Below, piece by piece: positions 12,327 to 26,874 of a stretch of DNA of 33,184 nt (its first letter is position 1; each line of letters starts with the position of its first letter). Source of the stretch: Chloroflexota bacterium. Lineage in GTDB: Bacteria > Chloroflexota > Dehalococcoidia > SZUA-161. The stretch covers positions 1 to 33,184 of the forward strand of contig JAJYLC010000021.1 of the NCBI GenBank assembly GCA_021787935.1. Direction: 5' to 3'. Made by a program: the position numbers and the translations under genes. Below the pieces are notes generated by a model. That model searched no databases and had not been told where the DNA came from. It saw only the letters and a program-made list of their open reading frames with translations.

Positions 12327-12647
12327 CTACACACAACCGGTAGGTTTGGGCAGTCCGGCTACCTTACAAGCTCCAGCCGCCGGTCCTTTGGGAAACATCT
12401 CGTAAACATATTTCAGTTCGAATTTATTCTGTTTGCACAGCATCCGCACCGGCGGAGCCACCCCAAATTTGATGTAGTAATCCCTGATATAGTTTACTAG
12501 CCTCCAGTGGTCCTCGGACATGGGGTGAACGCTGCTCTCCTCTTTGGCCAGGTCCTCGGCTACCTCTTTGGACCACTTGTCCGGTTCCTGGATGAAACCG
12601 TCCTCATCGATCTCGATTTCCATTCCAGCAAGTTTAGTCTTCGGCAA
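12327..12647 (-). CDS. dsrC: DsrC sulfur-carrier protein
   Basis: Small substrate protein of dissimilatory sulfite reduction: DsrAB loads sulfite sulfur onto it as a trisulfide, and DsrMKJOP re-reduces it. All 106 residues fit DsrC. The flexible C-terminal arm ends AGLPKPTGCV, with the penultimate Cys and a second Cys 11 positions earlier (GACKVAG), both needed for the redox cycle. The start is TTG behind a strong AGGAGGTG site; no ATG fits. It is last in the dsr operon, 36 bases after the dsrN stop. Confidence 0.96.
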   Translation of the reverse strand: MPKTKLAGMEIEIDEDGFIQEPDKWSKEVAEDLAKEESSVHPMSEDHWRLVNYIRDYYIKFGVAPPVRMLCKQNKFELKYVYEMFPKGPAAGACKVAGLPKPTGCV

Positions 12648-14225: not shown

Positions 14226-14450
14226 CTAGAAATTCTCTGGTAAGCAGAACATCGTCGAGCTGCCTGTGGACCAGTACTTAAGCGTCCCATCGACTGTGCA
14301 ATCGTTCATCGCTTTCTGAATTGCCCGCTTCTCGTATTGTCCGCAGAGGTCATGCACGACGTCCTTCATGTAGAACTTCGTGTGGCCTTCTTTGGAGTGT
14401 TTCTGGAACCACTCTATGACCTTCTGCTTCAGCTCCTCATCATTGCTCAT
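14226..14450 (-). CDS. dsrD: DsrD, activator of dissimilatory sulfite reductase
   Basis: Small winged-helix-fold protein that speeds up DsrAB and marks the reductive (sulfate- or sulfite-reducing) pathway. The 74 residues align with the family throughout: the N-terminal EELKQKVIEWF helix, a KFYMKDVVHDL segment, the RAIQKAMNDC recognition-like helix, and the wing around LKYWSTGSSTMF. GGGAGGGGGA precedes the ATG. It lies 12 bases after dsrB in the order A-B-D. Its presence argues against a sulfur-oxidising version of the pathway. Confidence 0.95.
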   Translation of the reverse strand: MSNDEELKQKVIEWFQKHSKEGHTKFYMKDVVHDLCGQYEKRAIQKAMNDCTVDGTLKYWSTGSSTMFCLPENF

Positions 14451-14462
14451 TCCCCCTCCCTC

Positions 14463-15545
14463 CTAGGTCCATTTGAACTGGGTTGTGCTTCTGAACGTGT
14501 CCCGGGCTAACTCGAAGTCGTCAATAAGCTGAACAGGGAAAGGAAGGTCCGTAAGCTTGAAGAATCTCTCCCAACCTACTCGCTGTATCCACTCGCCCAT
14601 ACGCTCACCCATACGCGCGTTGTCCGCGTATACTTCGAAGATGTGCTTGACTGTATTCACCACCTCCGGCCAGCGGGGCGGATTATTCGGCAGGTGGGGA
14701 ACAACGACACGAGAGAACATAGGTGGCTTGCGAGCGTTAGACACCTTGCCGCCTACAAAAATAGCGACCCCGTCCCCTTCAGCATTGGCCAGGGGCATTG
14801 CCGGACAGACAGTGAAGCAGTTGCCGCAGTACATGCACTTCGTCTCATCGACGACGACGCTCTTTATATTGGGGTCAGGATGGCGCCGGATAGCCTTTGT
14901 GGGGCAGGATGCCGCAACTGTGGGTATTTCGCACATGGCACGCATCTTCTCATGGTCTATATTCGGTATCCTTGTATGCATTCCTACCACTGCCACATCG
15001 CTGGCATGGATGGCGCCGCACATGTTAAGGCAACAGGCAAGGGAAAGCCTTGTTTTGGCGGGAAGCGTCTTCTTGCCAACGAAATAGTCGTAGAGCTCGT
15101 CCATCAACGCTTTGACAATCCCTGAGGCATCGGAGGCCGCACCATGACAGTGAATCCACCCCTGGGTGTGAATAACGTTAGACAGGCAGGCTCCCGGGCC
15201 GCTTCCGGTGCCGCCCACAGGTAATCCAAGCTTATTCAGCTCCTTGATTATGGGTTCGACATTTTCCTTTTTAGGAGTCAGAAACTCCGGGTTATACCGA
15301 CTGGTGAACCTGAGATGTCCGTCACAGTACTTATCGGCTACATTACAGAGATCACGAATAAAGTCTGTGCTCACCAGCTTGGGTGACCCGGCCCTTACCG
15401 TATAAAGCTCGTCTCCGGACTCGGCGACATGCTTCATAACTCCGGGCTTTAGTATCTCGTGATACTTCCATTTACCATAATTCTTCTTAATCACATCGGG
15501 GAGCATCGTCTTAAAATCAGGGGGTCCTACATCAGTTGGGCACAT
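14463..15545 (-). CDS. dsrB: Dissimilatory sulfite reductase beta subunit
   Basis: Forms the alpha2beta2 enzyme with DsrA and reduces sulfite at the sirohaem-[4Fe-4S] centre. The sirohaem/cluster region is visible as [16 protein letters not shown] and ACCLNMCGA, with the C-x3-C pair. A ferredoxin motif C-x2-C-x2-C-x3-C ([12 protein letters not shown]) follows near residue 240. The 360 residues are of family length. AGGAGG lies upstream of the ATG. It follows dsrA after a 104-base gap with a short palindrome at 15588-15603. Confidence 0.97.
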
Positions 15546-15649
15546 TAATTGCTTCCTCCTCTAGATTCTCTTGTTTGGTAATTCATAAACAGGCTTGCCT
15601 GTTGCATTCTGTCCATATGTCACCTTGGTGGTTGATTACGCCTCACTTT

Positions 15650-16813
15650 TTATCCCCAGAAGAAGTACGGATTTGCTCTGGGTGTGTTTACCATCTGAGG
15701 ACAAGGCTCTACATCTATGGCCTTCAGGAAGGCGGGCATTCCCATCCTGTCGATAAGCTCAGCCAACCTCTCTCTGGTCTTGCCGTTTTCATCCCACCAT
15801 TCCATGATCTTCTCCCAAAGCTGCTTTATCTCAGTATAGGGAGGTTGCACCTTGATGAAAGGAATGAGTACTGTAGAGAGGACAGCACCGTGAATTATGG
15901 GTGCTTTGGCACCGACCAGTATGGTCGCGCCAGTGTCAACACCTGGTCTGATGGCCTTTGGCATCAGGTTTATGCAGTGCATGCATCTGACACAGTCCTC
16001 GGGATGTGTCAGTTCTAGTTTGCCCTTCACCAGTTCTATTGCCTCGGTGGGGCACTTGGCGACAACCAGACGCTGAATATCGAATTTCTTATCCGCGTAC
16101 TCTTTGACCGCATTCTGATCGATCCTCAAATTATCTCTCCAGGTGCCGATTAAGCTGAAATCAGACCTGGCTATGGCGGCTACGCAGTCGTTAGGGCAAC
16201 CGGAGGCTTTGATCTTGGTCTTGTAGGGATACGGAGGCCGGTGAAGCTCCATTTGATAAGTCTTAGTTATGTCATAGATTAAGCCTAGGGTATCGAAGCA
16301 CGCCCATTCACAGCGGCCCGGGCCAACACAGGCTGTGGGTGACCTCAGGTCGGAACCTGAGCCTCCGAGGTCAAACCCGTGCTCGCTCAGCTCATCAAAA
16401 GTTGGCTGGAGTTCCTCAGTGGTGCACCCTAGGAGGATTATATCGCCGGTCGAGCCGTGGAAATTAGTCATCCCGCTGCCATGCTTGTCCCAGATATCAC
16501 AGATAGTTCTCAGCGCCTTCGTGTCATAAAACCATCCCGACGGGTGGTTGACACGCATGGTATGGAATGCCGCAACATTAGGGAACTCCTCGGGATTCTG
16601 GACGTATCTCCCGATGACACCGCCGCCGTAGCCCTTGACGCCAACGATACCGCCGTGCTTCCATTGGGTCATCTTCCTCTGGAAAGACCGTTCCTGGACT
16701 TTTATCAGGTCCTTTACCGAGTCATGCTTCTTGGCAGCCCGCTTTAGTTCTTTCACATAGCTGGGCCACGGTCCTTTCTCGAGCTCATCTACCATGGGTG
16801 TTTTATCTTCCAT
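15650..16813 (-). CDS. dsrA: Dissimilatory sulfite reductase alpha subunit
   Basis: Alpha subunit of sulfite reductase. The sirohaem/cluster ligands show as C-x5-C-x3-C ([11 protein letters not shown]) and C-x3-C (GCPNDC). The inserted ferredoxin domain has C-x2-C-x2-C followed by NLMPKA, the usual DsrA form without a classical fourth Cys in line. Catalytic-site basic residues lie in the FHGSTGDI and KTKIKASG regions. The length of 387 residues is a little short of some DsrA proteins but complete. AGGGAGG lies upstream of the ATG, and a strong promoter lies 50-80 bases before it. Confidence 0.97.
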
Positions 16814-16933: not shown

Positions 16934-18124
16934 TCACTGCGATGAGAAAGAGATAGCATGTGATTCCTCTTCTCCCCTCTCTTCTTTGACCCCGATGGTT
17001 ATTTTATAGAGGATGGTAAGTATCAAGGCACCTATTCCCCAGACCATCAGAGAGATTAATATCTCGGGCACTGTAGGCAGGTATTGAGTTATTGCACCTA
17101 AAGGCGAGGGAGTAAATCCGGGCACAAGCAAACCCAATCCCTTGTCTAGCCACATGGAAACGAATACCATGGCGGCAGCGAGTACTAGGGTTTTTTCATT
17201 CTTGCGTGTCCTGGGGTTGATCAGCAAGACGATGGCTGCTACCCAGAATATAAGGCAAGTCCATATCCAGGGTATAAGCGTTGTTTGTCCATTCAGACCT
17301 ACGAAGAAGTAGTCAAGGTGACTCATGTCCTCTGGAATCTGACTATAATAGACGGTAAAACCCTCCACTATGAGGAAGAACACGGTGATGATTGTTGCGT
17401 AGAGCACAATTTGTGCTAGCTTTTGCAGCGCTTCCTTCCCGACGTCGAAATGGGCGAACCTCTTCATGATCAGGCATGCTATGATTAGCAGAGCGGGGCC
17501 GGCAGCGAACGCTGAAGACAGGAAGCGGGGTGCCATAAGCGCCGTCAGCCAGAAAGGCCTCGAAGCCATTCCGCTATAGATGAAGGCTGTAACCGTGTGA
17601 ATGCTGATGGCCCAGGGGATGGAAATCAGGATCAGTGGTTTGACCCAGGCCTTCGGCTGTTCCCCATAATACTGGGACCTCAGTAAATACCAGCCTATCA
17701 CCAGATTAAGCAGGAGATAAACTGACAGGACAACTATGTCCCAGAAAAGAATGGAGTGGGGTTGTGGGTGGATAAAGAGATTTACAAGTCGCGTCGGTTG
17801 ACCGAGGTCTATAGTGACGAACAGCATGCACATGATTACCGCAGCTACGGCCAGGAACTCACCGAAAGTAGTGATCTTCCCGAAGGCTTTGTAGTTATGC
17901 AGGTAGTAGGGCAATACCACCATGACCGCTCCGGCCGCTACGCCGACCAGGAATGTCATATTGGCTATATAAAGGCCCCAGGAGACGTCCCGGCTCATGC
18001 CGGTTACTCCCAATCCGCGGTACCATTGCAAAAGATAGTAGCCAAAACCTATAGCTATGATGATTAGCAGGAAAAGTATCCATGCCCAATATTTTCGACT
18101 TCCCGTAAACGCTTTTTCTATCAT
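16934..18124 (-). CDS. dsrP: DsrP, NrfD-like membrane subunit of DsrMKJOP
   Basis: Polytopic membrane subunit that exchanges electrons with menaquinone in the DsrMKJOP complex. The 396 residues contain about ten hydrophobic segments, starting with WAWILFLLIIIAIGFGYYL and the NrfD signature region WGLYIANMTFLVGVAAGAVMV. A conserved-looking loop with IDLGQPTRLVNLFIHPQPHS follows. The tail is short, charged and cytoplasmic. The ribosome site AGGATA is modest. It follows dsrO after 10 bases. Confidence 0.93.
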   Translation of the reverse strand: MIEKAFTGSRKYWAWILFLLIIIAIGFGYYLLQWYRGLGVTGMSRDVSWGLYIANMTFLVGVAAGAVMVVLPYYLHNYKAFGKITTFGEFLAVAAVIMCMLFVTIDLGQPTRLVNLFIHPQPHSILFWDIVVLSVYLLLNLVIGWYLLRSQYYGEQPKAWVKPLILISIPWAISIHTVTAFIYSGMASRPFWLTALMAPRFLSSAFAAGPALLIIACLIMKRFAHFDVGKEALQKLAQIVLYATIITVFFLIVEGFTVYYSQIPEDMSHLDYFFVGLNGQTTLIPWIWTCLIFWVAAIVLLINPRTRKNEKTLVLAAAMVFVSMWLDKGLGLLVPGFTPSPLGAITQYLPTVPEILISLMVWGIGALILTILYKITIGVKEERGEEESHAISFSSQ

Positions 18125-18134
18125 TATGAGTATC

Positions 18135-18914
18135 CTAGATTACATAATAAACGTTGGGCCCTGTCCCCAGTTCAGCTTTACGCTGAATGCTGTAGTTTGT
18201 GGCGAGGAGCTTTCTAATATCCGAGTTGGGGTCATTAAGGTCGCCAAAAACCAGAGCCTTCTCGGTGCACGCTTCTACGCATGCCGGAATCAAGCCTAGG
18301 GCAAGCCTTTCCTCGCAGAAGTCGCACTTCTCCACCACACCTTTGGTTCGCGTCGGGTAATCGGGATTGATCTGCTTGATGTAGGGTCGCGGGTCTACCC
18401 AGTTGAAGCTGCGTGCCCCGTAGGGACAGGCAGCCATGCAGTATCGGCATCCGATACACCTGTGATAGTCCATCATAACTATTCCATCTGCTGCGCGCTT
18501 CCACGTGGCGGCTGTGGGGCAAACCCTTGCGCAGGGGGGGTGGTCACAGTGATTGCAGAGTACGAGAACGGGTAGCCCTTTCAACGAATTGGCAAGGAAG
18601 GGGCTGTTTTGTTCAGGGAATACATCCTCATAATTAACATCCCATATCCATTTAATCTCATGCTTCGGGTCAGGGATGTCAGGCACATTGTGGATGGTAT
18701 TACATGCATTTATGCAATCTGTACATCCATCCTTGCAGTTGGCGATTTTAATGGCCATGCCCCACTTTGTCTGTGTCTGGGCCGCCGTTTGCGCTTCTGC
18801 AGCCTTTTTCGGGTCTTCAGCCCGCGATATCACATCAAAAATCGGCTTTGCTGCGAGAAGCCCCACGAAGGCAATTCCCGCCATTTTTATGAATCCTCGT
18901 CTATCGACGCTCAT
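18135..18914 (-). CDS. dsrO: DsrO, periplasmic ferredoxin-like subunit
   Basis: Multi-[4Fe-4S] periplasmic subunit of DsrMKJOP. The Tat signal DRRGFIKMAG is at residues 4-13, followed by a hydrophobic stretch, so the folded protein is exported. Ferredoxin-type clusters show at CKDGCTDCINAC, CNHCDHPPCARVCP, CIGCRYCMAACPYG and CDFCEERL with VEAC. The order and 259-residue length match the family. GGGGAG stands upstream of the ATG. It lies between dsrJ and dsrP as expected. Confidence 0.94.
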   Translation of the reverse strand: MSVDRRGFIKMAGIAFVGLLAAKPIFDVISRAEDPKKAAEAQTAAQTQTKWGMAIKIANCKDGCTDCINACNTIHNVPDIPDPKHEIKWIWDVNYEDVFPEQNSPFLANSLKGLPVLVLCNHCDHPPCARVCPTAATWKRAADGIVMMDYHRCIGCRYCMAACPYGARSFNWVDPRPYIKQINPDYPTRTKGVVEKCDFCEERLALGLIPACVEACTEKALVFGDLNDPNSDIRKLLATNYSIQRKAELGTGPNVYYVI

Positions 18915-18936
18915 CTACTGCTCCCCAAGGCAGGTA

Positions 18937-19305
18937 TTAATAGCCGGCAAAGTGACAGCTCCAGCAATTGAGAGTTACCCCCTCATAGGTATGGCATTGG
19001 TCGCAGAATTCGGCCTTATTATGACAACTCAGACATGTCCCTGTCAGGCTTATATTCCACTCTTGCCCATTGCTTGCTACGTAGGTGTCATTCCCATCAC
19101 GGACAACCAGAGTCCTCCACTCATCTAGCAATTTCATGTGGTTATCTAGCATGTAGCTGGTGGACTCTACACACTCATTCCCCGCGGCAGCTTGGAGTTG
19201 GGGCACATGACTGGTTTGACTGTGAGCTGTGAGGTACCAGATAGGAAAGGTAATCAGAATTAGGAAGATAACAATTCCGGCAATGATTTTACCTTTGTCG
19301 TACAT
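18937..19305 (-). CDS. dsrJ: DsrJ, triheme cytochrome c subunit
   Basis: Periplasmic triheme cytochrome of DsrMKJOP, held by an uncleaved N-terminal helix (residues 7-26). Three CxxCH haem sites crowd the C-terminus: CLSCH, CDQCH and CWSCH. An earlier Cys in NECVES (residue 45) may be the axial ligand of the unusual His/Cys haem known in DsrJ. The 122 residues are on the short side. Its ATG overlaps the dsrK stop by one base, so translation is coupled. Confidence 0.93.
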   Translation of the reverse strand: MYDKGKIIAGIVIFLILITFPIWYLTAHSQTSHVPQLQAAAGNECVESTSYMLDNHMKLLDEWRTLVVRDGNDTYVASNGQEWNISLTGTCLSCHNKAEFCDQCHTYEGVTLNCWSCHFAGY

Positions 19306-20912
19306 TATTTTGCCTCTTGTTTGCGGGGTGTGCCGCGCATATCAGTTGTTCGCTCCTTTTCGCCCTTCATTACCAGCGCGTTCCCAACCAGTTCATGAAG
19401 GCCGCTGACCTCTACCCCGGGAACCCAGTATTGCAGTAAAGTTGGAAGCACAGCTCTATCAATGGCGCAAATACAGGTGAGGAGATTCACCCCGTGTTTT
19501 TCCTTAACATACTTTACTGCGTTAGCCCTGGGAAGACCGCCCCTCAATCTCATTTCCAAATTCTCATCTGAACCCAGGCCGGCCCCGCTGCCGCAGCAAA
19601 AGGTGTATTCTTTTATGGTATTCTCCGGCATCTCATAGAAATTGTTGCATACATTCTTGATTATGTATCTCGGCTCCTCAAAAAGCCCCATAGCCCTGGC
19701 CGGGTTACAGGAATCATGGAAGGTCATCTTCCAATGGTCGTTCCGGCTTGGGTCTAACTTTAACTTATTGTTCTTGATAAGGTCGGCAGTAAATTCACAG
19801 ATGTGGACCATTTTTGTGGCTTTGGCATTCTCAAACTTCGTACCTGTTATCGGAGATACCGGTTCCTCCAGAAAATCGGCAGGCCCGTTGATGGTGTTCA
19901 TATACTGGTGGACAACCCTCCACATATGGCCGCACTCTCCCCCGAGTATCCATTTCACTCCCAGCCTCTTGGCTTCGGCGTACATCTTGGCGTTCAGCCT
20001 TTTCATCATCTCAGCAGAGTGGAAGAGGCCGAAATTGCCCCCTTCAGAAGCATAGGCACTCCAGGTGTAGTCAAGTCCGATTTCGTGGAAAAGCATCAAA
20101 TATCCCAGGAAGGTATACCAGTGGGGGCTGGCGAAGTAATCGGCGGAAGGAGTGATGAAGAGAAGCTCAGCGCCTTTCCTGTTAACAGAAGCTTCAACTT
20201 TGACGCCGGTTAAGTCCTCCACCTCATCTATGGCAAAATCCAGGGTATCCTTGAACGCGTGGGGTGGCACGCCGAGGTGATTTCCTGTCCTGAAACAGTT
20301 GGACGCAGGCTCGATGACCCAACCTACGTTGCAACCCACCAGGCTGAGCAAGTCTCGCGCCATCATCGTTATTTCACAGGTATCAATTCCATACGGGCAG
20401 AAGACTGAGCAGCGGCGACATTCAGTACACTGATAGAAGTAGTAGTACCACTCTTTGAGCACATCCTCGGTTAGTTCCCTGGCTCCACCCACTTTGCCGA
20501 AGAGCTTTCCCCCCAAGGTGAAATACTTCCTGTAAACTGACCGGAGCAGTTCGGCCCGGAGCACTGGCATATTCTTGGGGTCTCCGGTGCCGATGAAGAA
20601 GTGACACTTGTCAGCGCAGGCACCGCATCGTACGCAGATATCCATATAGAGTCTAAAGGACCGATATTTTTTCAGGCGGTCATTCATTCCTTCGAGTATT
20701 ATCTGTTTCCAGTTCTCCGGCAGTTTCCAGTCGGCATCGAAAGGTTGCCATTGCCTCGGATACGGAAGTCCCAGATATTCCTGATGTTTCTGCGGTGCAC
20801 TGTAGCAGTAGGTGCCCTTTTTGAAATCGACAGGGGTTTCCATCCAACCCTTTTTAGGGGGGGTGTAATCTAACTTCAATAATTCCTCTGGTTTTTTTGT
20901 TGTATCCGTCAT
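19305..20912 (-). CDS. dsrK: DsrK, HdrD-like cytoplasmic subunit (DsrC trisulfide reductase)
   Basis: Cytoplasmic catalytic subunit that reduces DsrC trisulfide with electrons from DsrM. The 535 residues show two ferredoxin motifs, CVRCGACADKC (about residue 93) and CTECRRCSVFC (about residue 161). A CCG-type cysteine-rich half follows with GGECGHMWR, FHDSCNPARAMG, FCCGSGAGLG and TCICAID, the site of the special [4Fe-4S] centre. AAAAGGAA within the end of dsrM is the ribosome site, and one base separates the dsrM stop from this ATG. Confidence 0.95.
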   Translation of the reverse strand: MTDTTKKPEELLKLDYTPPKKGWMETPVDFKKGTYCYSAPQKHQEYLGLPYPRQWQPFDADWKLPENWKQIILEGMNDRLKKYRSFRLYMDICVRCGACADKCHFFIGTGDPKNMPVLRAELLRSVYRKYFTLGGKLFGKVGGARELTEDVLKEWYYYFYQCTECRRCSVFCPYGIDTCEITMMARDLLSLVGCNVGWVIEPASNCFRTGNHLGVPPHAFKDTLDFAIDEVEDLTGVKVEASVNRKGAELLFITPSADYFASPHWYTFLGYLMLFHEIGLDYTWSAYASEGGNFGLFHSAEMMKRLNAKMYAEAKRLGVKWILGGECGHMWRVVHQYMNTINGPADFLEEPVSPITGTKFENAKATKMVHICEFTADLIKNNKLKLDPSRNDHWKMTFHDSCNPARAMGLFEEPRYIIKNVCNNFYEMPENTIKEYTFCCGSGAGLGSDENLEMRLRGGLPRANAVKYVKEKHGVNLLTCICAIDRAVLPTLLQYWVPGVEVSGLHELVGNALVMKGEKERTTDMRGTPRKQEAK

Positions 20913-20913
20913 C

Positions 20914-21846
20914 TTATTCCTTTTCCAAAGGCAACCCGGCGTCTTTCATATGCTCTCTGAACTCGTCCTCCCACTCTTGATATGTGTGAACCTTGACAGG
21001 GTAGTTCCAGGGGTTAATATGCCTGCGCATGCGGCTGTTGTTCGCCAGGTTTCTCGTCGGGCTGAGGAAGACCCCGGCCATGTGCACCAATTTACTGAAT
21101 GGAAAGTAAGCAAATAGAGTGCAGACAAGGAAAAGATGGACATAAAAGGCCAGGCCGATTCCGGCTGCGGGAATAGAGGGATGGAAGCTCAAGACTCCCA
21201 GTGCCAGCTCCTTTACACTCACTAGGTCTACTCTGAAAATGTACCGCATGAAAATGCCGGAAAGAGCTATGCCTAACAGCAGCAAAACTGCGAAGTAGTC
21301 GGAGAACAGTGAGATATAGCGTAGTTGCGCACCGGCCATCCTTCTCAGTAAGAGGTAACCCAGTGCCAATACAATGAGGATATCAGTTATGTACAGAGTG
21401 GGTAACATTATCTGAAAAAGGCCATCCAATCTCTGGAGGGAGATGACAAAAGCGGGCACAGGCTCGACGAACAGTCTTAAATGCCTCAGTAGAATGATAA
21501 GAAGGCTCCAGTGGAAGACGAATGCCCCCAGCCAGAGTAACTTGCTGTCTTTGTAGACGAGTTTCTGAATCCCTCGTCTCAGTTCGGTTTTCGTGTTCCG
21601 CAACAGCGACCGGAACACGAGCACTTCGAGTGCCATCCTGCCGATGACGCCGGCATTATTGTAAGGGTTTTCGATTTTTTTTGACTTGATCCAAGGGAGA
21701 GATTTTTGTTGCCCGCAGGTTGTAGGTATGCGGAAGGGAACAGGCGAGCTTGCCCATCTCACTATGCGATAGACGAGTCCTACGACGAAGATGAAGAGAG
21801 CCGCATAGGGTATGATGATTCCGAAAACAAGATACACGGCATTCAT
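20914..21846 (-). CDS. dsrM: DsrM, NarI-like cytochrome b subunit
   Basis: Di-haem cytochrome b of the NarI family that takes electrons from menaquinol for DsrK. The 310 residues have five or six hydrophobic helices. Histidines in LGAFVFHWSL, LLRHLRLF and FYVHLFL are candidate haem ligands. The PFSKLVHMAG motif, also common in NarI-like proteins, lies near the end. The start overlaps the upstream RsbRD-like gene stop by four bases (ATGA). Confidence 0.93.
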   Translation of the reverse strand: MNAVYLVFGIIIPYAALFIFVVGLVYRIVRWASSPVPFRIPTTCGQQKSLPWIKSKKIENPYNNAGVIGRMALEVLVFRSLLRNTKTELRRGIQKLVYKDSKLLWLGAFVFHWSLLIILLRHLRLFVEPVPAFVISLQRLDGLFQIMLPTLYITDILIVLALGYLLLRRMAGAQLRYISLFSDYFAVLLLLGIALSGIFMRYIFRVDLVSVKELALGVLSFHPSIPAAGIGLAFYVHLFLVCTLFAYFPFSKLVHMAGVFLSPTRNLANNSRMRRHINPWNYPVKVHTYQEWEDEFREHMKDAGLPLEKE

Positions 21847-22376
21847 TCCACAGCCTCGCCGTGTTTCCCGTTTTTACCTCCCATCAACCTGAGCAACCTA
21901 AAAGCTATCTCTCTGTCAGCCCTCACCTCATTTACCCGGAGTTCGCAGATTTTCTCGCGGCTTTCCATGTATTTGTCGAATGCTATTGATGCCAATTTGT
22001 CTATCCCGGGCTCAAACTCCAGCCATTCGCCGAAAGACTGTTTCTTCTCTAGCTCGCTCCCCAGTTCATCTGTTATAGCTTTCTTCAACAGGAAAACAAA
22101 AGAGATAGCTTCCTGAGGGGAGAAGTCTTGAACTGCTCTGATTTTGATAATATTGTCCAGAGATGCTGCGGCTTTATCGGAGTCTACTCGGTCCTGCAGT
22201 AGTTCATCATAAAGAGAGTTTATTTCCTGGGAGATTGTATGGCCTACAGGATTGGTGAATCTGTCGTTATCCTTGAGAAAGTCTGAGACGCCAGTGGGAT
22301 AGGTATCTGCTATCAGATTGAACCATCTTTGCAAAATGGAGTTTTTATTCTGCGTCAGAAGTGTTTTCAGAGCCAT
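21843..22376 (-). CDS. RsbRD N-terminal-like sensor domain protein heading the dsrMKJOP operon
   Basis: The 177-residue soluble protein resembles the RsbRD_N domain found in stressosome-like and kinase proteins. The pattern ILQRWFNLIADTYP, the FSPQEAISFVFLLKKAI block and a C-terminal RVNEVRADREIAFRL helix match it, but no STAS or kinase domain follows. It overlaps dsrM by four bases and is the first gene of the operon. Similar small proteins are known next to dsrM in sulfate reducers; a regulatory or assembly role is inferred. No strong ribosome site precedes the ATG. Confidence 0.8.
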   Translation of the reverse strand: MALKTLLTQNKNSILQRWFNLIADTYPTGVSDFLKDNDRFTNPVGHTISQEINSLYDELLQDRVDSDKAAASLDNIIKIRAVQDFSPQEAISFVFLLKKAITDELGSELEKKQSFGEWLEFEPGIDKLASIAFDKYMESREKICELRVNEVRADREIAFRLLRLMGGKNGKHGEAVE

Positions 22377-22458
22377 GGTTTGACAATAACATATTGATTC
22401 GACAACCTAAAGAAAATGATACTCTAAGGCTAGGTAGCAGACATCGGCTAATCGGCTT

Positions 22459-22483
22459 ATTATAGCATAGGCAATAATGCCTA
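22459..22483 (-). promoter_or_regulatory. Candidate -10 box with 6-4-6 palindrome upstream of the dsrMKJOP operon
   Basis: On the minus strand a perfect TATAAT (22459-22464) lies about 85 bases before the first ATG. The -35 region is weak. A perfect inverted repeat, TAGGCA-ATAA-TGCCTA (22468-22483), fills the would-be spacer. A weak -35 box with a palindrome in the spacer is a common layout where an activator or repressor acts. The remainder of 22377-22560 shows no gene. Confidence 0.4.
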
Positions 22484-22560
22484 GAAAAATCTAATAATTC
22501 CAGGCATGTGTTCAAAGCGGTTCAGGATGTAGGTAAATCACCTTGAGCATAATGAGCAGG

Positions 22561-23223
22561 CTATATTATTCTCAATCCTGCGATTTTTATCGCTCCCCGT
22601 TGATAGCCGTCTGGAAATAGCTTTTCCAGGTCCTCTGACTCGATATGGTTTGATTTACAACACTCGTATACGGTCGGTACCAGGCCATTTCTTTGCCAGC
22701 TATCGCGAAGATATTGTATTATTTCCCAGTGCTTTTTGGTTAATCCTCCCGGAATCTTCATCTCCAATGCTTTATTTACCGCGTAGTCTTTGTCCCATTC
22801 ACCGGGATCCACCAAGAATCCATATGCATCTATCCTGTAGATTTTACCTTTTGGTATAGCCACTTCTTTTTCAGTAACATGTATAGGAACAGGTTCACCG
22901 TAGTAGTTCACCAGGCGGTCCTTGTAACTTATTCCTGCCAGCAGGCAGGCACCTCGCTGATAGCCGCTTGGAAAGAGCTTCTCTAAGTCTCGGATAGCTA
23001 ATCTATTTGCTTTGCATGTTTCAAAAACTCTAGGGCATACGCCGTTTTTGAAAAAATATTTTCTAATGAAATAAATTACATCCCAGTGCTTTTTTGAGAG
23101 CCCTTCGCGTATTTTCAATCTAGATGCCATTTCCGATGCGAAATTTTCGTCCCAATGATCATAGTTTGTTAAGAAACCTAACTCGTCCACTTCGTAGGCT
23201 TTGTCTTTCAGGTTGATTTTCAT
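22561..23223 (-). CDS. Tandem DsrC/TusE-like two-domain protein lacking the redox arm
   Basis: The 220 residues are two DsrC-fold domains in one chain (about 1-100 and 122-220). Both carry W-D, GL-(S/T)-KKHW, a helix with R, NG-x2-P-x-V-x-E, CK-x-N, DLEKLFP-x-GYQRGA and AG-(I/L). Domain 1 keeps the inner Cys (Cys-93 in RGACLLAG), but the chain runs on, so no C-terminal Cys exists. Domain 2 has Ile-212 there and stops at AGLRII, before the arm. It cannot make the intramolecular DsrC disulfide. Single-domain Cys-less homologues have been proposed as regulators (RspA type). AAAGGAG lies upstream. It is coded just ahead of the dsrMKJOP operon and divergent from an ArsR gene. Confidence 0.9.
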   Translation of the reverse strand: MKINLKDKAYEVDELGFLTNYDHWDENFASEMASRLKIREGLSKKHWDVIYFIRKYFFKNGVCPRVFETCKANRLAIRDLEKLFPSGYQRGACLLAGISYKDRLVNYYGEPVPIHVTEKEVAIPKGKIYRIDAYGFLVDPGEWDKDYAVNKALEMKIPGGLTKKHWEIIQYLRDSWQRNGLVPTVYECCKSNHIESEDLEKLFPDGYQRGAIKIAGLRII

Positions 23224-23258
23224 GTTTTCAGACTCCTTTCTGTTCAGATATCACCACA

Positions 23259-23440: not shown

Positions 23441-23866
23441 ATGAATATGAAAGAAAATAGACAAGGCAATATTGAAGATCAAGCTGCGGTTTTCAGCGCA
23501 CTCGCCGACCCTACCCGTCTGAGACTGGTGAGATTGCTCTGCCAACAGCGCGACCCTGATGCACTGTGTGTGAACGCACTGGCAGGTTTTTTGGGAGTTA
23601 CCCAGTCTGCCGTTTCCCAGCATATACGGGTGCTTAAATCTGCCGGACTGGTCAAGGGGCTGAGGCGCGGCTACCACATTCACTACTTTATTAACCACGA
23701 CACTCTGGAGCGCTGGCGGGAACAGATCATGGCAGTTTTGACTATGGAAGGGCAAGACTCACAGGAAGAATTCTGCAGCAAATATTGTCCCCTGAAGGCG
23801 AAGCAAGAAGAAAAAACTTTAAAGGAGGGCCCAGATGCCAGTAATAGCAGCAGTAGTAAAATGTAA
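23441..23866 (+). CDS. ArsR-family winged-helix regulator (first copy)
   Basis: A 141-residue ArsR/SmtB-type repressor. The N-terminal helix has FSALADPTRLRLVRLL. The recognition helix lies in LGVTQSAVSQHIRVLKSAGLV, and the wing is GLRRGYHIHYFI. It lacks the usual ELCVCDL metal site; its cysteines are Cys-34, Cys-43, Cys-112 and Cys-116. A Cys pair split between the N- and C-terminal helices recalls persulfide sensors such as SqrR/BigR, so sulfide or persulfide sensing is possible; this is inference. Two start codons (23441, 23447) are in frame and neither has a good ribosome site. The end overlaps the zinc-ribbon gene by 32 bases. Confidence 0.88.
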   Translation: MNMKENRQGNIEDQAAVFSALADPTRLRLVRLLCQQRDPDALCVNALAGFLGVTQSAVSQHIRVLKSAGLVKGLRRGYHIHYFINHDTLERWREQIMAVLTMEGQDSQEEFCSKYCPLKAKQEEKTLKEGPDASNSSSSKM

Positions 23867-23972
23867 AAAGTGCGGCTCTGAAATAAGGTCAGACTGGAAG
23901 TTCTGTCCCAAGTGTGGCGACAAAATTGCATGTACCGAGAAATATAAAGAGCTGTGCGCCCGGAAAAGGTGA
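23835..23972 (+). CDS. 45-residue zinc-ribbon protein
   Basis: A short gene starting with ATG behind a strong AAAGGAGGG (23821-23829), inside the 3' end of the first arsR gene in another frame. The 45 residues hold a classic zinc ribbon: C-x2-C (10, 13) then C-P-x-C (24, 27), spacing x10. A Cys-33 and a basic tail with Cys-41 follow. It has no transmembrane segment. The overlap implies coupled translation with the regulator, so it may work with it. The function is unknown; the reading frame and ribosome site make it a likely real gene. Confidence 0.72.
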   Translation: MPVIAAVVKCKKCGSEIRSDWKFCPKCGDKIACTEKYKELCARKR

Positions 23973-24152
23973 GCCGCAAGACAGACGGTGCCAGGATGCT
24001 TGAAGAACGTATTGCTGAGTCCAAGTAAGCTCTCTATGTTTACTTTCCTTTATTAAGATTCAAATAGTCCTCCGGAGCAGCGGCCAGATATAGACAGGCG
24101 GAAAAAGAACCATACATATCAACTGAGGTATCAGGTAAGCGCTTCCCGCTGC

Positions 24153-24181
24153 TTGACAGTAACTGTAGGATGTCCTATACT
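24153..24181 (+). promoter_or_regulatory. Sigma70-type promoter of the second arsR gene
   Basis: TTGACA (24153-24158) and TATACT (24176-24181), 17 bases apart: perfect -35, one mismatch in the -10. Transcription would start near 24188, within the palindromic region that follows. The 240 bases before the gene (23973-24212) otherwise hold nothing I recognise. Confidence 0.75.
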
Positions 24182-24188
24182 ATAAGCG

Positions 24189-24199
24189 TAGATGCGCAT
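24189..24199. promoter_or_regulatory. Operator candidate for the second ArsR protein, upstream copy
   Basis: TAGATGCGCAT contains the perfect palindrome ATGCGCAT (24192-24199). It sits at the predicted transcription start, where a bound ArsR repressor would block initiation. The same ten bases TAGATGCGCA recur in reverse orientation downstream of the gene (24602-24611). Confidence 0.5.
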
Positions 24200-24212
24200 A
24201 TAAGGTGACATA

Positions 24213-24572
24213 ATGAGGGATTTGGTCAAGGCTATGAGGGCGTTGTCAGACGAGACAAGGCTCAGGATATTGAATCTGCTCCTGGTGAAAGAGTGTTGCG
24301 TTTGTGAGGTTATGCAGGCGCTGGACATCTCACAGACCAGGGCCTCTCGCAACCTGAGCGCCCTTTACGATGCCGGTTTCCTCAAGTTGAGGAAGGACGG
24401 CCTGTGGTCGTTGTATTCCATAGACAGAGAAGGGATGCAACCGCATTACGCTGACCTAGTCGAGGCGGTGAGAAAGGGGCTAAAGGGTAACGAGTTGGTG
24501 GCACAGGACAGGGAGCGCCTTAGAAAAGCCAAGCGCGTAGGCCCGGGCTGTGTCCGGAAATGTGCCAAATAG
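24213..24572 (+). CDS. arsR: ArsR-family arsenic-type regulator (second copy)
   Basis: A 119-residue repressor. The metalloid site is clear: ECCVCEV at residues 27-33 (Cys-28, Cys-29, Cys-31), the position used by As(III)/Sb(III)-sensing ArsR. The recognition helix SQTRASRNLSALYDAGFLKLRK and wing follow. A C-terminal CVRKC pair may add ligands. The context is a small protein and an ACR3 exporter downstream, so it most likely controls arsenite efflux. The ATG is 25 bases after the predicted transcription start. Confidence 0.9.
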   Translation: MRDLVKAMRALSDETRLRILNLLLVKECCVCEVMQALDISQTRASRNLSALYDAGFLKLRKDGLWSLYSIDREGMQPHYADLVEAVRKGLKGNELVAQDRERLRKAKRVGPGCVRKCAK

Positions 24573-24592
24573 CCTCTTTTTTTGCCATGAAT

Positions 24593-24608
24593 ATGCGTTA
24601 TTGCGCAT
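24593..24608. promoter_or_regulatory. Operator candidate, downstream copy
   Basis: ATGCG and CGCAT are perfect inverted repeats separated by 6 bases, and the surrounding word matches the reverse complement of the upstream operator. It lies 24 bases before the GTG of the next gene, so the second ArsR protein may also control that gene. Confidence 0.45.
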
Positions 24609-24631
24609 CTAGGCAAGAACCTTAGAAGGGG

Positions 24632-24847
24632 GTGCCTGTGCTTGAAATCAGAAAAACAGCCATAGCCCTCGAAGAGGAAGAACTGTTGGAGCTGGAACAA
24701 ATAATAGTTGACCGCGATGAAAAAGAGGCACTAATTTTCTTGAAGAAGTCGGTATATGACAAGGTGGTTCATTCTCAACAGGGCAAACTTAAATCACACC
24801 TAGATACCGGCGAAGACCCTGTGGGGAGATTCAGGCAGAAACTCTAG
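24632..24847 (+). CDS. Small conserved-looking protein in the arsenic cluster
   Basis: A 71-residue soluble, charged protein starting with GTG behind AGAAGGGG. It is predicted mostly helical (EEEELLELEQII, EALIFLKKSVYDKVV) and ends GKLKSHLDTGEDPVGRF. It has no cysteine. I recall similar small proteins near arsR genes but cannot name the family. It lies between the second arsR and the exporter, behind an ArsR-type operator word, so it probably belongs to the arsenic response. The function is unknown. Confidence 0.7.
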   Translation: MPVLEIRKTAIALEEEELLELEQIIVDRDEKEALIFLKKSVYDKVVHSQQGKLKSHLDTGEDPVGRFRQKL

Positions 24848-24852
24848 AGATA

Positions 24853-24949
24853 TGTCATTGCGAGGAGTTCCGATTCATCGGGACGACGAAGCAATCTCTG
24901 ATAATAGCTTCACGTAAGTACTGAGATTCTCGCTGCGCTCAGAATGACA
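24853..24949. mobile_element. 97-bp repeat with inverted ends (MITE or REP-like)
   Basis: The ends are TGTCATTGCGAG (24853-24864) and its near-complement CTCAGAATGACA (24938-24949), sharing the outer 7 bases exactly and the GAG/CTC block. Inside are the words ACGAAGCAATCTC and GAGATTCTCGCTGCGCTC, seen in interspersed repeats of many bacterial genomes. No coding region is present. A short palindromic interspersed repeat is the likely nature; copies elsewhere cannot be seen here. Confidence 0.55.
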
Positions 24950-25018
24950 CCAGGGTTTGAGCGAGGGATACTATGAGCAGCGCAACCTCATATCGAACAA
25001 CGAGACTAAAAGGAACAT

Positions 25019-26098
25019 ATGAATAAAGCTGAGACAATGGCCGGCATGCGTCGGCTTGCCTTGTTAGACCGCTTTCTGACGCTCTGGATATTCCTGGCGA
25101 TGGGGCTCGGGGTTGGGCTAGGCTATTTTATTCCTGGCACAGCCGATTTCATCAATAGCTTTCAAGTAGGCACCACATCCATTCCTATAGCTATCGGCCT
25201 CATACTCATGATGTATCCCCCGCTGGCCAAGGTGAAGTATGAGCAACTGGGCAAGGTGTTCCGCAACTGGCGTGTGCTTGCACTTTCCCTGGTGCAAAAC
25301 TGGGTTATCGGCCCGCTGCTCATGTTCTTCCTGGCTATCGGATTCCTCGGCTTCCTCTGGCCGTATCCTGAGTACATGCAAGGGCTGATCATGATTGGCT
25401 TGGCCCGCTGCATCGCCATGGTCATCGTCTGGAACGAGCTGGCCAAAGGCGACAGCGAGTATGCCGCCGGTCTGGTAGCCTTCAACTCCATCTTCCAGAT
25501 AGTTTTTTACTCGGTGTATGCCTATGTCTTCATAACAGTGCTTCCGGGATGGTTCGGGCTTCAAGGCACGATAGTACACGTCACCATAGGCCAGATCGCC
25601 CAGAGCGTATTCATCTATCTGGGCATACCCTTCTTCGGAGGAATGCTAACGCGCTTTGCACTCATAAAGACCAGGGGGCGGAACTGGTACGAGAAGAAGT
25701 TCATCCCCAGAATCAGCCCCATTACGCTTATCGCCCTGATCTTCACCATCGTGGTGATGTTCTCGCTCAAGGGCGAGTACATTATTGACCTGCCTCTGGA
25801 CGTGGTGCGCATCGCTGTCCCGCTGCTCGTCTACTTCGTGGCCATGTTCCTGGTATCGTTCTGGATGGGCAAGAGAATAGGCGCCGACTACTCTAAGACA
25901 GCGACTATCTCCTTCACTGCTGCCAGCAACAATTTCGAGCTGGCCATCGCTGTAGCAGTAGCAGTGTTCGGTATCGGCTCAGGGCAGGCCTTCGCTGCTG
26001 TCATCGGACCTCTGGTGGAGGTGCCAGTGCTGATCAGCTTGGTAAATGTAGCCTTGTACTTCCAGCGAAAGTATTTTCGTGCTGAGGCGGCAGCATAG
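25019..26098 (+). CDS. acr3: ACR3-family arsenite efflux transporter
   Basis: A 359-residue inner-membrane exporter with about ten hydrophobic segments that expels As(III). Family marks are [19 protein letters not shown] with the essential-type Cys (Cys-131) in the fourth helix, and [18 protein letters not shown] with the acidic residue in the ninth. AAAAGGAA precedes the ATG. There is no arsenate reductase nearby, which fits an anaerobe meeting arsenite directly. It is likely controlled by the upstream ArsR protein. A 17-codon reading frame overlaps the start (24973-25026). Confidence 0.95.
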
Positions 26099-26145: not shown

Positions 26146-26874
26146 ATGGAAAAATTAGATTCTGAAAATCATAAGTCCGGCTGTTTGGTCTGTGGAAGGG
26201 AGCTTGTGTATCACGATACCTATGAATCCCGTGAGTGCTTCTATTGCAAGCAGTCCTATGAGACGAATGTAACCTGCGCTGCAGGGCACTATATATGTGA
26301 CTCATGCCACAGCCTTTCGGCAATCAACATTATAAGGCAGTTTTGCGACTCGAGCGAGCTCACCGATCCTTTGCGGATGGCTCTCATCCTGATGCGGCAT
26401 CCCGCGGTGAAGATGCATGGTCCCGAGCACCATTTTCTGGTTCCGGCGGTATTACTGGCTGCCTACTATAACCTAACAGGGGAGGCTGCGAAGAAGAAAG
26501 AGAAGATTGAGCAGGCGGAGAAGAGGGCTAAACAGATATTAGGAGGTTTCTGCGGTTTCTACGGAGACTGCGGTGCCGCCGTGGGGACAGGCATTTTCTT
26601 GAGCCTTATCACCGGTGCCACTCCTCTTTCTGTGGATAGCTGGAGGCTTTCTAATCTGATGACGGCTGAGTCCCTCAGGTCTGTTGCTCTCCACGGCGGG
26701 CCCAGGTGCTGTAAACGGAACACTTATCTTGCCATCCTGGAGGCTGCCCGGTTTCTGAAAGAGAACCTTAACATCCGGATGGATATATCTTCAAAAATCA
26801 AATGTGAGTTCAGCCCGTTGAACAAGGAATGTCTGAAAGAGGGATGCGTTTTCTATTCAGGGTATAAAGGATAA
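26146..26874 (+). CDS. DUF5714-like cysteine-rich protein
   Basis: A 242-residue soluble protein I place near DUF5714 by its pattern: an N-terminal zinc-like part with GCLVCGREL, CFYCKQSY and HYICDSCHS, a middle HGPEHHFLVPAVLLAAYYN segment, then the glycine-rich stretch GGFCGFYGDCGAAVGTGIFLS. A C-terminal Cys-rich tail (CCKRN, KCEFS, CVFYSG) follows. Cysteines are about 7 percent of residues, suggesting metal or iron-sulfur binding. It lies 47 bases after the exporter, so it may be the last gene of the arsenic operon. The activity is unknown. The following 59 bases hold nothing recognisable. Confidence 0.82.
   Translation: MEKLDSENHKSGCLVCGRELVYHDTYESRECFYCKQSYETNVTCAAGHYICDSCHSLSAINIIRQFCDSSELTDPLRMALILMRHPAVKMHGPEHHFLVPAVLLAAYYNLTGEAAKKKEKIEQAEKRAKQILGGFCGFYGDCGAAVGTGIFLSLITGATPLSVDSWRLSNLMTAESLRSVALHGGPRCCKRNTYLAILEAARFLKENLNIRMDISSKIKCEFSPLNKECLKEGCVFYSGYKG

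Follow-up and report, generated by a model that had tools for sequence, protein, structure and literature searches.

The window analysed here, a stretch of 33,184 nucleotides, is contig G000:C61 of a Dehalococcoidia MAG (the source genome, G000) with a contamination of about 5%. On its minus strand lie, in order, a gene for a tandem DsrC protein, an RsbRD_N gene, dsrMKJOP, dsrAB, dsrD, a cobyrinate-synthase-like gene and canonical dsrC; the cobyrinate-synthase-like gene between dsrD and dsrC is probably dsrN. A near relative of the source MAG, G001, which matches record JACWAE (isolate B_CHL_03), serves for comparison. The principal features are:

12327-12647, minus strand: canonical dsrC with the C-x10-C arm GACKVAGLPKPTGCV (Pfam, NCBIfam)
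14226-14450, minus strand: dsrD, 74 aa (by sequence likeness and position only)
14463-16813, minus strand: dsrA (15650-16813) and dsrB (14463-15545) (TIGR02064, TIGR02066)
16934-19305, minus strand: dsrJ, dsrO and dsrP (NF045797 for DsrO, NF045798 for DsrP; dsrJ by position)
19305-20912, minus strand: dsrK, CCG-type heterodisulfide reductase subunit (place in dsrMKJOP and reading of the sequence)
20914-21846, minus strand: dsrM (NF038037, 501 bits)
21843-22376, minus strand: RsbRD_N-domain protein, with a 4 bp overlap with dsrM (Pfam PF14361, E 3.2e-21)
22380-22540, minus strand: promoter-like module of rsbRD-dsrMKJOP, with the palindrome TAGGCATTATTGCCTA at 22468-22483 (pattern and DNA searches, alignment)
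22561-23223, minus strand: tandem-DsrC gene, 220 aa (ORF and translation; Pfam DsrC in two stretches; dN/dS 0.21 against the G001 orthologue)
23233-23239, minus strand: Shine-Dalgarno sequence AAAGGAG, 9 nt upstream of the tandem ATG (sequence; conserved in G001)
23441-23866, plus strand: ArsR-family regulator, divergent from the tandem gene (Pfam HTH_5)

The tandem ORF runs on the minus strand from an ATG at 23223 to a stop codon ending at 22561. An earlier note on this DNA had placed it next to dsrMKJOP and apart from the true dsrC. The true dsrC is indeed separate, on the minus strand at 12327-12647 with its C-x10-C intact; as to dsrMKJOP, the tandem gene adjoins the cluster, but 184 bp with a conserved promoter-like module stand before the start of rsbRD-dsrM, and because this module lies between them the tandem gene appears to be a separate transcription unit.

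The arms of the module palindrome, TAGGCAT and TTGCCTA, flank a central TA, and the whole stands directly before TATAAT. The module, of about 160 bp, is repeated upstream of the F1Fo ATP synthase operon as well as dsrMKJOP, while G000 and G001 alike have a version of about 100 bp, with the palindrome one base off, in front of sat-aprBA-qmo, where it is divergent from the genes for a NarL/LuxR response regulator and its GAF/PAS kinase. The palindrome is also found before rsbRD-dsrM in G012, a genome without the tandem gene. (Module and palindrome sites are window 22380-22540, L090 near 1048, L091 near 6126, L101 5962-6061, L102 1090-1183 and L080 6150-6165.) A search for an operator of the tandem DsrC turned up this module, common to atp and sat, instead. 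From these sequence patterns the module likely marks a sulfate-respiration regulon that includes ATP synthase in the Dehalococcoidia. Since the module by sat adjoins the NarL/LuxR gene and the palindrome occurs in the tandem-less G012, we infer that the response regulator, and not the tandem DsrC, controls dsrMKJOP.

Several other features of the neighbourhood may be recorded. At each of the four dsrMKJOP loci seen, dsrM is overlapped by an RsbRD_N-like gene (window 21843-22376, L028 5691-6224, L079 9096-9683 and L080 6227-6889; the Pfam scan covered the window copy), and its product is possibly a conserved accessory or sensor of the DsrMKJOP complex. A full DsrMKJOP is encoded here (window 16934-21846), unlike in the single-cell genome DEH-C11, for which dsrMK but no dsrJOP were reported (PMC4959651). 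Just past the promoter region from which the tandem gene and its divergent neighbour are read, window 23441-26098 holds genes for two regulators of the ArsR family and for an ACR3-like transporter. Window 26146-26874 encodes a DUF5714 protein that shows kinship to the metal-binding selenoprotein MbdU but scores below the cut-off of that family.

Two DsrC folds in a single chain

Profile and fold both assign the tandem protein to the DsrC superfamily. Two stretches of the protein match Pfam DsrC (PF04358; E 6.6e-42, 142.7 bits against a cut-off of 24.9), and two likewise match TIGR03342 (115.2 bits, cut-off 53.5). Half 1, taken as residues 1-106 of the AlphaFold full-length model, superimposes on the DsrC chain 3or1_C with a Z-score of 18.0 over 104 residues, and half 2, modelled alone with a pLDDT of 87, does so with a Z-score of 17.3 and 1.2 Å over 100 residues; the closest unrelated structures to either half score 5.8 or less. 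The earlier proposal of two DsrC-fold halves in one chain is thereby upheld, and the separate model extends this to the second half. The parts of the protein are encoded as follows:

22924-23223, minus strand: DsrC fold 1, residues 1-100, retaining C63, C70 and CysB (C93) (Z 18.0 to 3or1_C; cysteine columns)
22912-22914, minus strand: codon of Leu104, at the CysA place of the C-x10-C arm; Cys in the G000:C99 paralogue (L031) (alignments)
22846-22923, minus strand: former arm or linker, residues 101-126, with VNYYGEP at 106-112 (pLDDT; alignment of copies)
22564-22845, minus strand: DsrC fold 2, residues 127-220, with Ile212 for CysB, with C188 and C189, and stopping before the arm (separate model, Z 17.3 to 3or1_C)

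Alignment also agrees with the earlier description of Cys-93 in domain 1, Ile-212 in domain 2 and no C-terminal arm. Leu104 occupies the CysA position of half 1, the CysB position of half 2 is Ile212 in the window copy and Val in the others, and the chain ends at residue 220; CysA is therefore missing from both halves and CysB is retained in half 1 only. The window copy has further cysteines beyond those noted earlier, namely C63, C70, C188 and C189, and C63, C70, C93 and C189 are invariant across all tandem copies that cover those positions. Position 63 is alanine in canonical Chloroflexota DsrC, so that C63 is new, while C70 and C93 are present in the canonical proteins too and may thus simply be inherited.

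The segment that takes the place of the redox arm is predicted to be disordered (pLDDT under 50 at residues 102-117 of the full-length model), and yet six of the nine positions from 104 to 112 are invariant among divergent copies. At the arm position the CysA-less copies read [RH][LI]VN[YF]Y[GR]E, though they are just 55-59% identical overall. Half 1 of the G000:C99 paralogue (L031 9278-9991, beside a histidine kinase gene) instead reads GACKLAGVTYKQGC, with the exact C-x10-C spacing of DsrC inside the chain, and this sole copy with C-x10-C is also without the VNYYxEP-type linker motif. The split of motif and C-x10-C among the copies suggests, as a matter of sequence, that the arm has been swapped for a peptide with a different task.

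With DsrC, the two-cysteine sulfur carrier of dissimilatory sulfur metabolism, the tandem protein shares the fold in both halves, about 30% identity and the PF04358 and TIGR03342 matches. It differs in having two folds per chain, in the double loss of CysA, in CysB being confined to half 1, in GYxRGA for GPA[KA]GA, and in the conserved linker that stands in for a C-terminal arm; where DsrC proper ends in a C-x10-C with a penultimate CysA and CysB, we find Leu104 in half 1 and, in half 2, Ile212 and no arm. TusE, of the 2-thiouridine sulfur relay, belongs to the same superfamily and likewise has one redox cysteine, but TusE keeps CysA, a position without cysteine here, whereas the tandem protein keeps CysB, and the TusE model PRK11508 gives 58.9 bits, far under its cut-off of 191. 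The nearest concept, by description, is RspA. These proteins are reportedly (Venceslau et al. 2014) cysteine-independent members of the DsrC superfamily; a regulatory role has been proposed for them, and they are said to be single-domain. Compared with RspA by description only, the tandem protein resembles it in having no complete CysA/CysB pair (of the C-terminal cysteines that RspA lacks, half 2 has neither and half 1 retains CysB), and departs from it in the internal duplication, in keeping CysB and other invariant cysteines, and in that DNA binding is disfavoured (see below). Another relative is encoded in the same genomes: an arm-less DsrC domain fused to the C-terminus of a CCG protein. 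It too has the DsrC fold, lacks the cysteine arm and belongs to a context of sulfate respiration, but it is joined to a catalytic partner and sits on a separate branch of the tree. A literature search for tandem, fused or domain DsrC returned no description of the tandem architecture in the papers it reached.

Distribution and origin of the tandem family

The G001 orthologue is 83% identical to the window protein and occupies the same position beside rsbRD-dsrMKJOP in this second MAG; when genome contigs were scanned with short peptides, this B_CHL_03 orthologue was the sole match. The other full-length copies are G000:C99 (47% identity to the window protein), G001:C107 (58%) and G008:C1 (57%); the genome of the last consists of one contig. 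G000 has a third copy, which is truncated where contig C72 ends. Among 393 Dehalococcoidia and 400 Chloroflexota genomes sampled, the tandem gene was present in three genomes only, all of the window's own Dehalococcoidia family. No tandem copies were found in viral contigs and plasmid sets, and a phage set gave one weak single-domain match only, on an unannotated 3.2 kb record.

Pairwise dN/dS against the G001 orthologue (NG86) is 0.21 for the whole protein, and the values of 0.14 and 0.24 for the two halves indicate that both are under purifying selection. The view that the gene is a degenerate, functionless duplicate or a product of assembly or binning, to which the contamination of about 5% in the source MAG might lend some colour, can scarcely be credited when another MAG has the orthologue at this very locus, a single-contig genome holds a further copy and dN/dS is about 0.2. 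An assembly artefact in particular was rejected on the strength of the same-locus orthologue, the paralogues and the single-contig copy, and the tandem DsrC can accordingly stand, as had been supposed, as a real protein and not an assembly join.

In a tree of 37 DsrC domains all tandem halves form one clade (support 100/99), within which half 2 (99/91) and half 1 (90/93) are sister groups, which points to a single in-frame duplication first, with the paralogues arising later. Both halves share the changes from canonical GPA[KA]GA to GYxRG[A] and from VRxLC to V[YF]E[TC]C. A fusion of two unrelated DsrC genes was rejected, given that the halves are sister clades with GYxRG[A] and VYE[TC]C in common. 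We are confident, therefore, that the gene is an in-frame duplicated DsrC-like gene encoding two folds in one chain.

Paralogues are found next to an [NiFe] hydrogenase operon (from which the paralogue is divergent), an NfnAB-like pair and a histidine kinase gene (G000:C99), suggesting a part for the family in several redox systems; in G008 the paralogue lies beside hypoxanthine phosphoribosyltransferase and adenine deaminase genes. Co-occurrence with dsrMKJOP is one-sided, and a search for a strict association found none: the gene lies beside dsrMKJOP in two MAGs, but the related genomes G003 and G012 have dsrM and no tandem gene, so the protein is accessory to DsrMKJOP and not required by it.

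Possible docking without sulfur carriage, and other readings

In Allochromatium vinosum DsrC, sulfur is bound by CysA only and the other cysteine is dispensable (PMC3397948); the tandem protein should therefore not carry sulfur in the manner of DsrC. As it can neither accept sulfur nor cycle a CysA-CysB disulfide, a role as a pseudo-substrate comes into view, and the most economical reading of its function is that it docks on DsrC clients. That it does so with a regulatory role, as a brake or adaptor, is quite possible, if still short of probable. What the sequences show is that in-frame duplication of a DsrC-like ancestor gave one chain with two DsrC folds, that CysA was lost from both folds (in this copy) and that the flexible arm was replaced by the VNYYxEP linker (in most copies). 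Each fold might still use the DsrC surface to dock onto clients, namely CCG-type heterodisulfide reductases (DsrK) and/or DsrAB, with a cysteine-free linker in the place of the redox arm, and the protein could then be a bivalent pseudo-substrate that brakes the flow of electrons to DsrC or acts there as an adaptor, while the paralogues would serve other redox systems (the hydrogenase and the NfnAB-like locus). DsrAB is an alpha2beta2 complex that takes two DsrC. The outcome of docking could be to inhibit, to bridge or to sense; the DsrC decoy or sensor of DsrC state suggested in the earlier note is possible, and close to this explanation. The fullest version, a two-headed pseudo-DsrC competitor or adaptor that throttles or wires DsrC clients, in which VNYYxEP replaces the redox arm and the two-cysteine arm of the intermediate paralogue works inside the chain, we regard as doubtful.

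Docking is favoured by the twofold retention of the fold, by the monophyly of the tandem family, by the loss of CysA, by the linker motif kept in the CysA-less copies and missing from the one with C-x10-C, by purifying selection on both halves and by the position beside dsrMKJOP in two MAGs. It is favoured too by a natural fusion protein of the same genomes, in which an arm-less DsrC domain is attached to a CCG protein (HmcF/TmcB/DsrK-like); this argues for CCG proteins being the place where arm-less DsrC folds dock. CCG-domain proteins, HdrB and TmcB among them, have been described as predicted DsrC partners (PMC10553843). Against it, paralogues adjoin unrelated genes (those in G008 and the histidine kinase at G000:C99), the tandem protein is missing from G003 and G012 although they have dsrM, and the change of GPA[KA]GA to GYxRGA in both halves may have altered the DsrC binding face.

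The conserved C63, C70, C93 and C189 could also signal a redox or metal function, and a new redox or sulfur relay, in which C63, C70 and C93 (with C189) form a disulfide, metal or persulfide site replacing CysA-CysB, deserves consideration given their invariance in the copies that cover them, the novelty of C63 against the canonical Ala and the C-x10-C kept in half 1 of one paralogue. We consider it rather unlikely, since C70 and C93 are shared with canonical Chloroflexota DsrC and CysB alone binds no sulfur in A. vinosum DsrC (PMC3397948). The bivalent fold, the flexible 26-residue linker and the location beside dsrMKJOP in two MAGs would equally suit a purely structural role in DsrMKJOP or DsrAB, as an adaptor or additional subunit that links two complexes and regulates neither, an explanation made improbable by the promoter evidence for a separate transcription unit and by the absence of the gene from other dsrM genomes.

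The DNA-binding regulator proposed in the earlier note, which would be an RspA-like covalent dimer of helix-turn-helix units acting on dsr or hydrogenase promoters, is disfavoured and seems unlikely. In its favour, the DsrC fold is weakly like helix-turn-helix regulators (Z up to 5.8), and the tandem gene and a paralogue are divergent from an ArsR gene and an [NiFe] hydrogenase operon, respectively; a likeness of that order, though, is expected of any DsrC. In half 2 the recognition-like helix has an acidic character throughout the five full-length copies (net charge -2 to -5; -2 to +2 in half 1), three of the five have a pI of 5.3-6.2 (8.6 in the window copy), and the dsrMKJOP palindrome recurs before atp and in the tandem-less G012 and, with one base changed, before sat beside the response regulator gene.

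DsrC is regarded as a redox hub linking several CCG-type reductases to sulfite reduction, and to our knowledge the control of electron flow through it is largely obscure. A duplicated non-carrier DsrC beside a DsrC reductase, of which one genus has two to three paralogues in each genome, amounts to a natural separation-of-function variant, and would offer a tool for mapping the surface by which DsrC docks, independently of its chemistry. If the tandem protein binds DsrK or DsrAB, it becomes a candidate protein-level regulator of sulfate respiration.

The gene for the CCG protein with the arm-less DsrC domain at its C-terminus is followed by a separate DsrC-like gene (L033 7361-9016 and 9056-9409; L035 5904-7559 and 7627-7971; L034 6801-8450 and 8492-8857), whose arm-less product ends LPQTVLYP. 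A short DsrM-like membrane subunit precedes the fusion, and the arrangement is conserved in three genomes.
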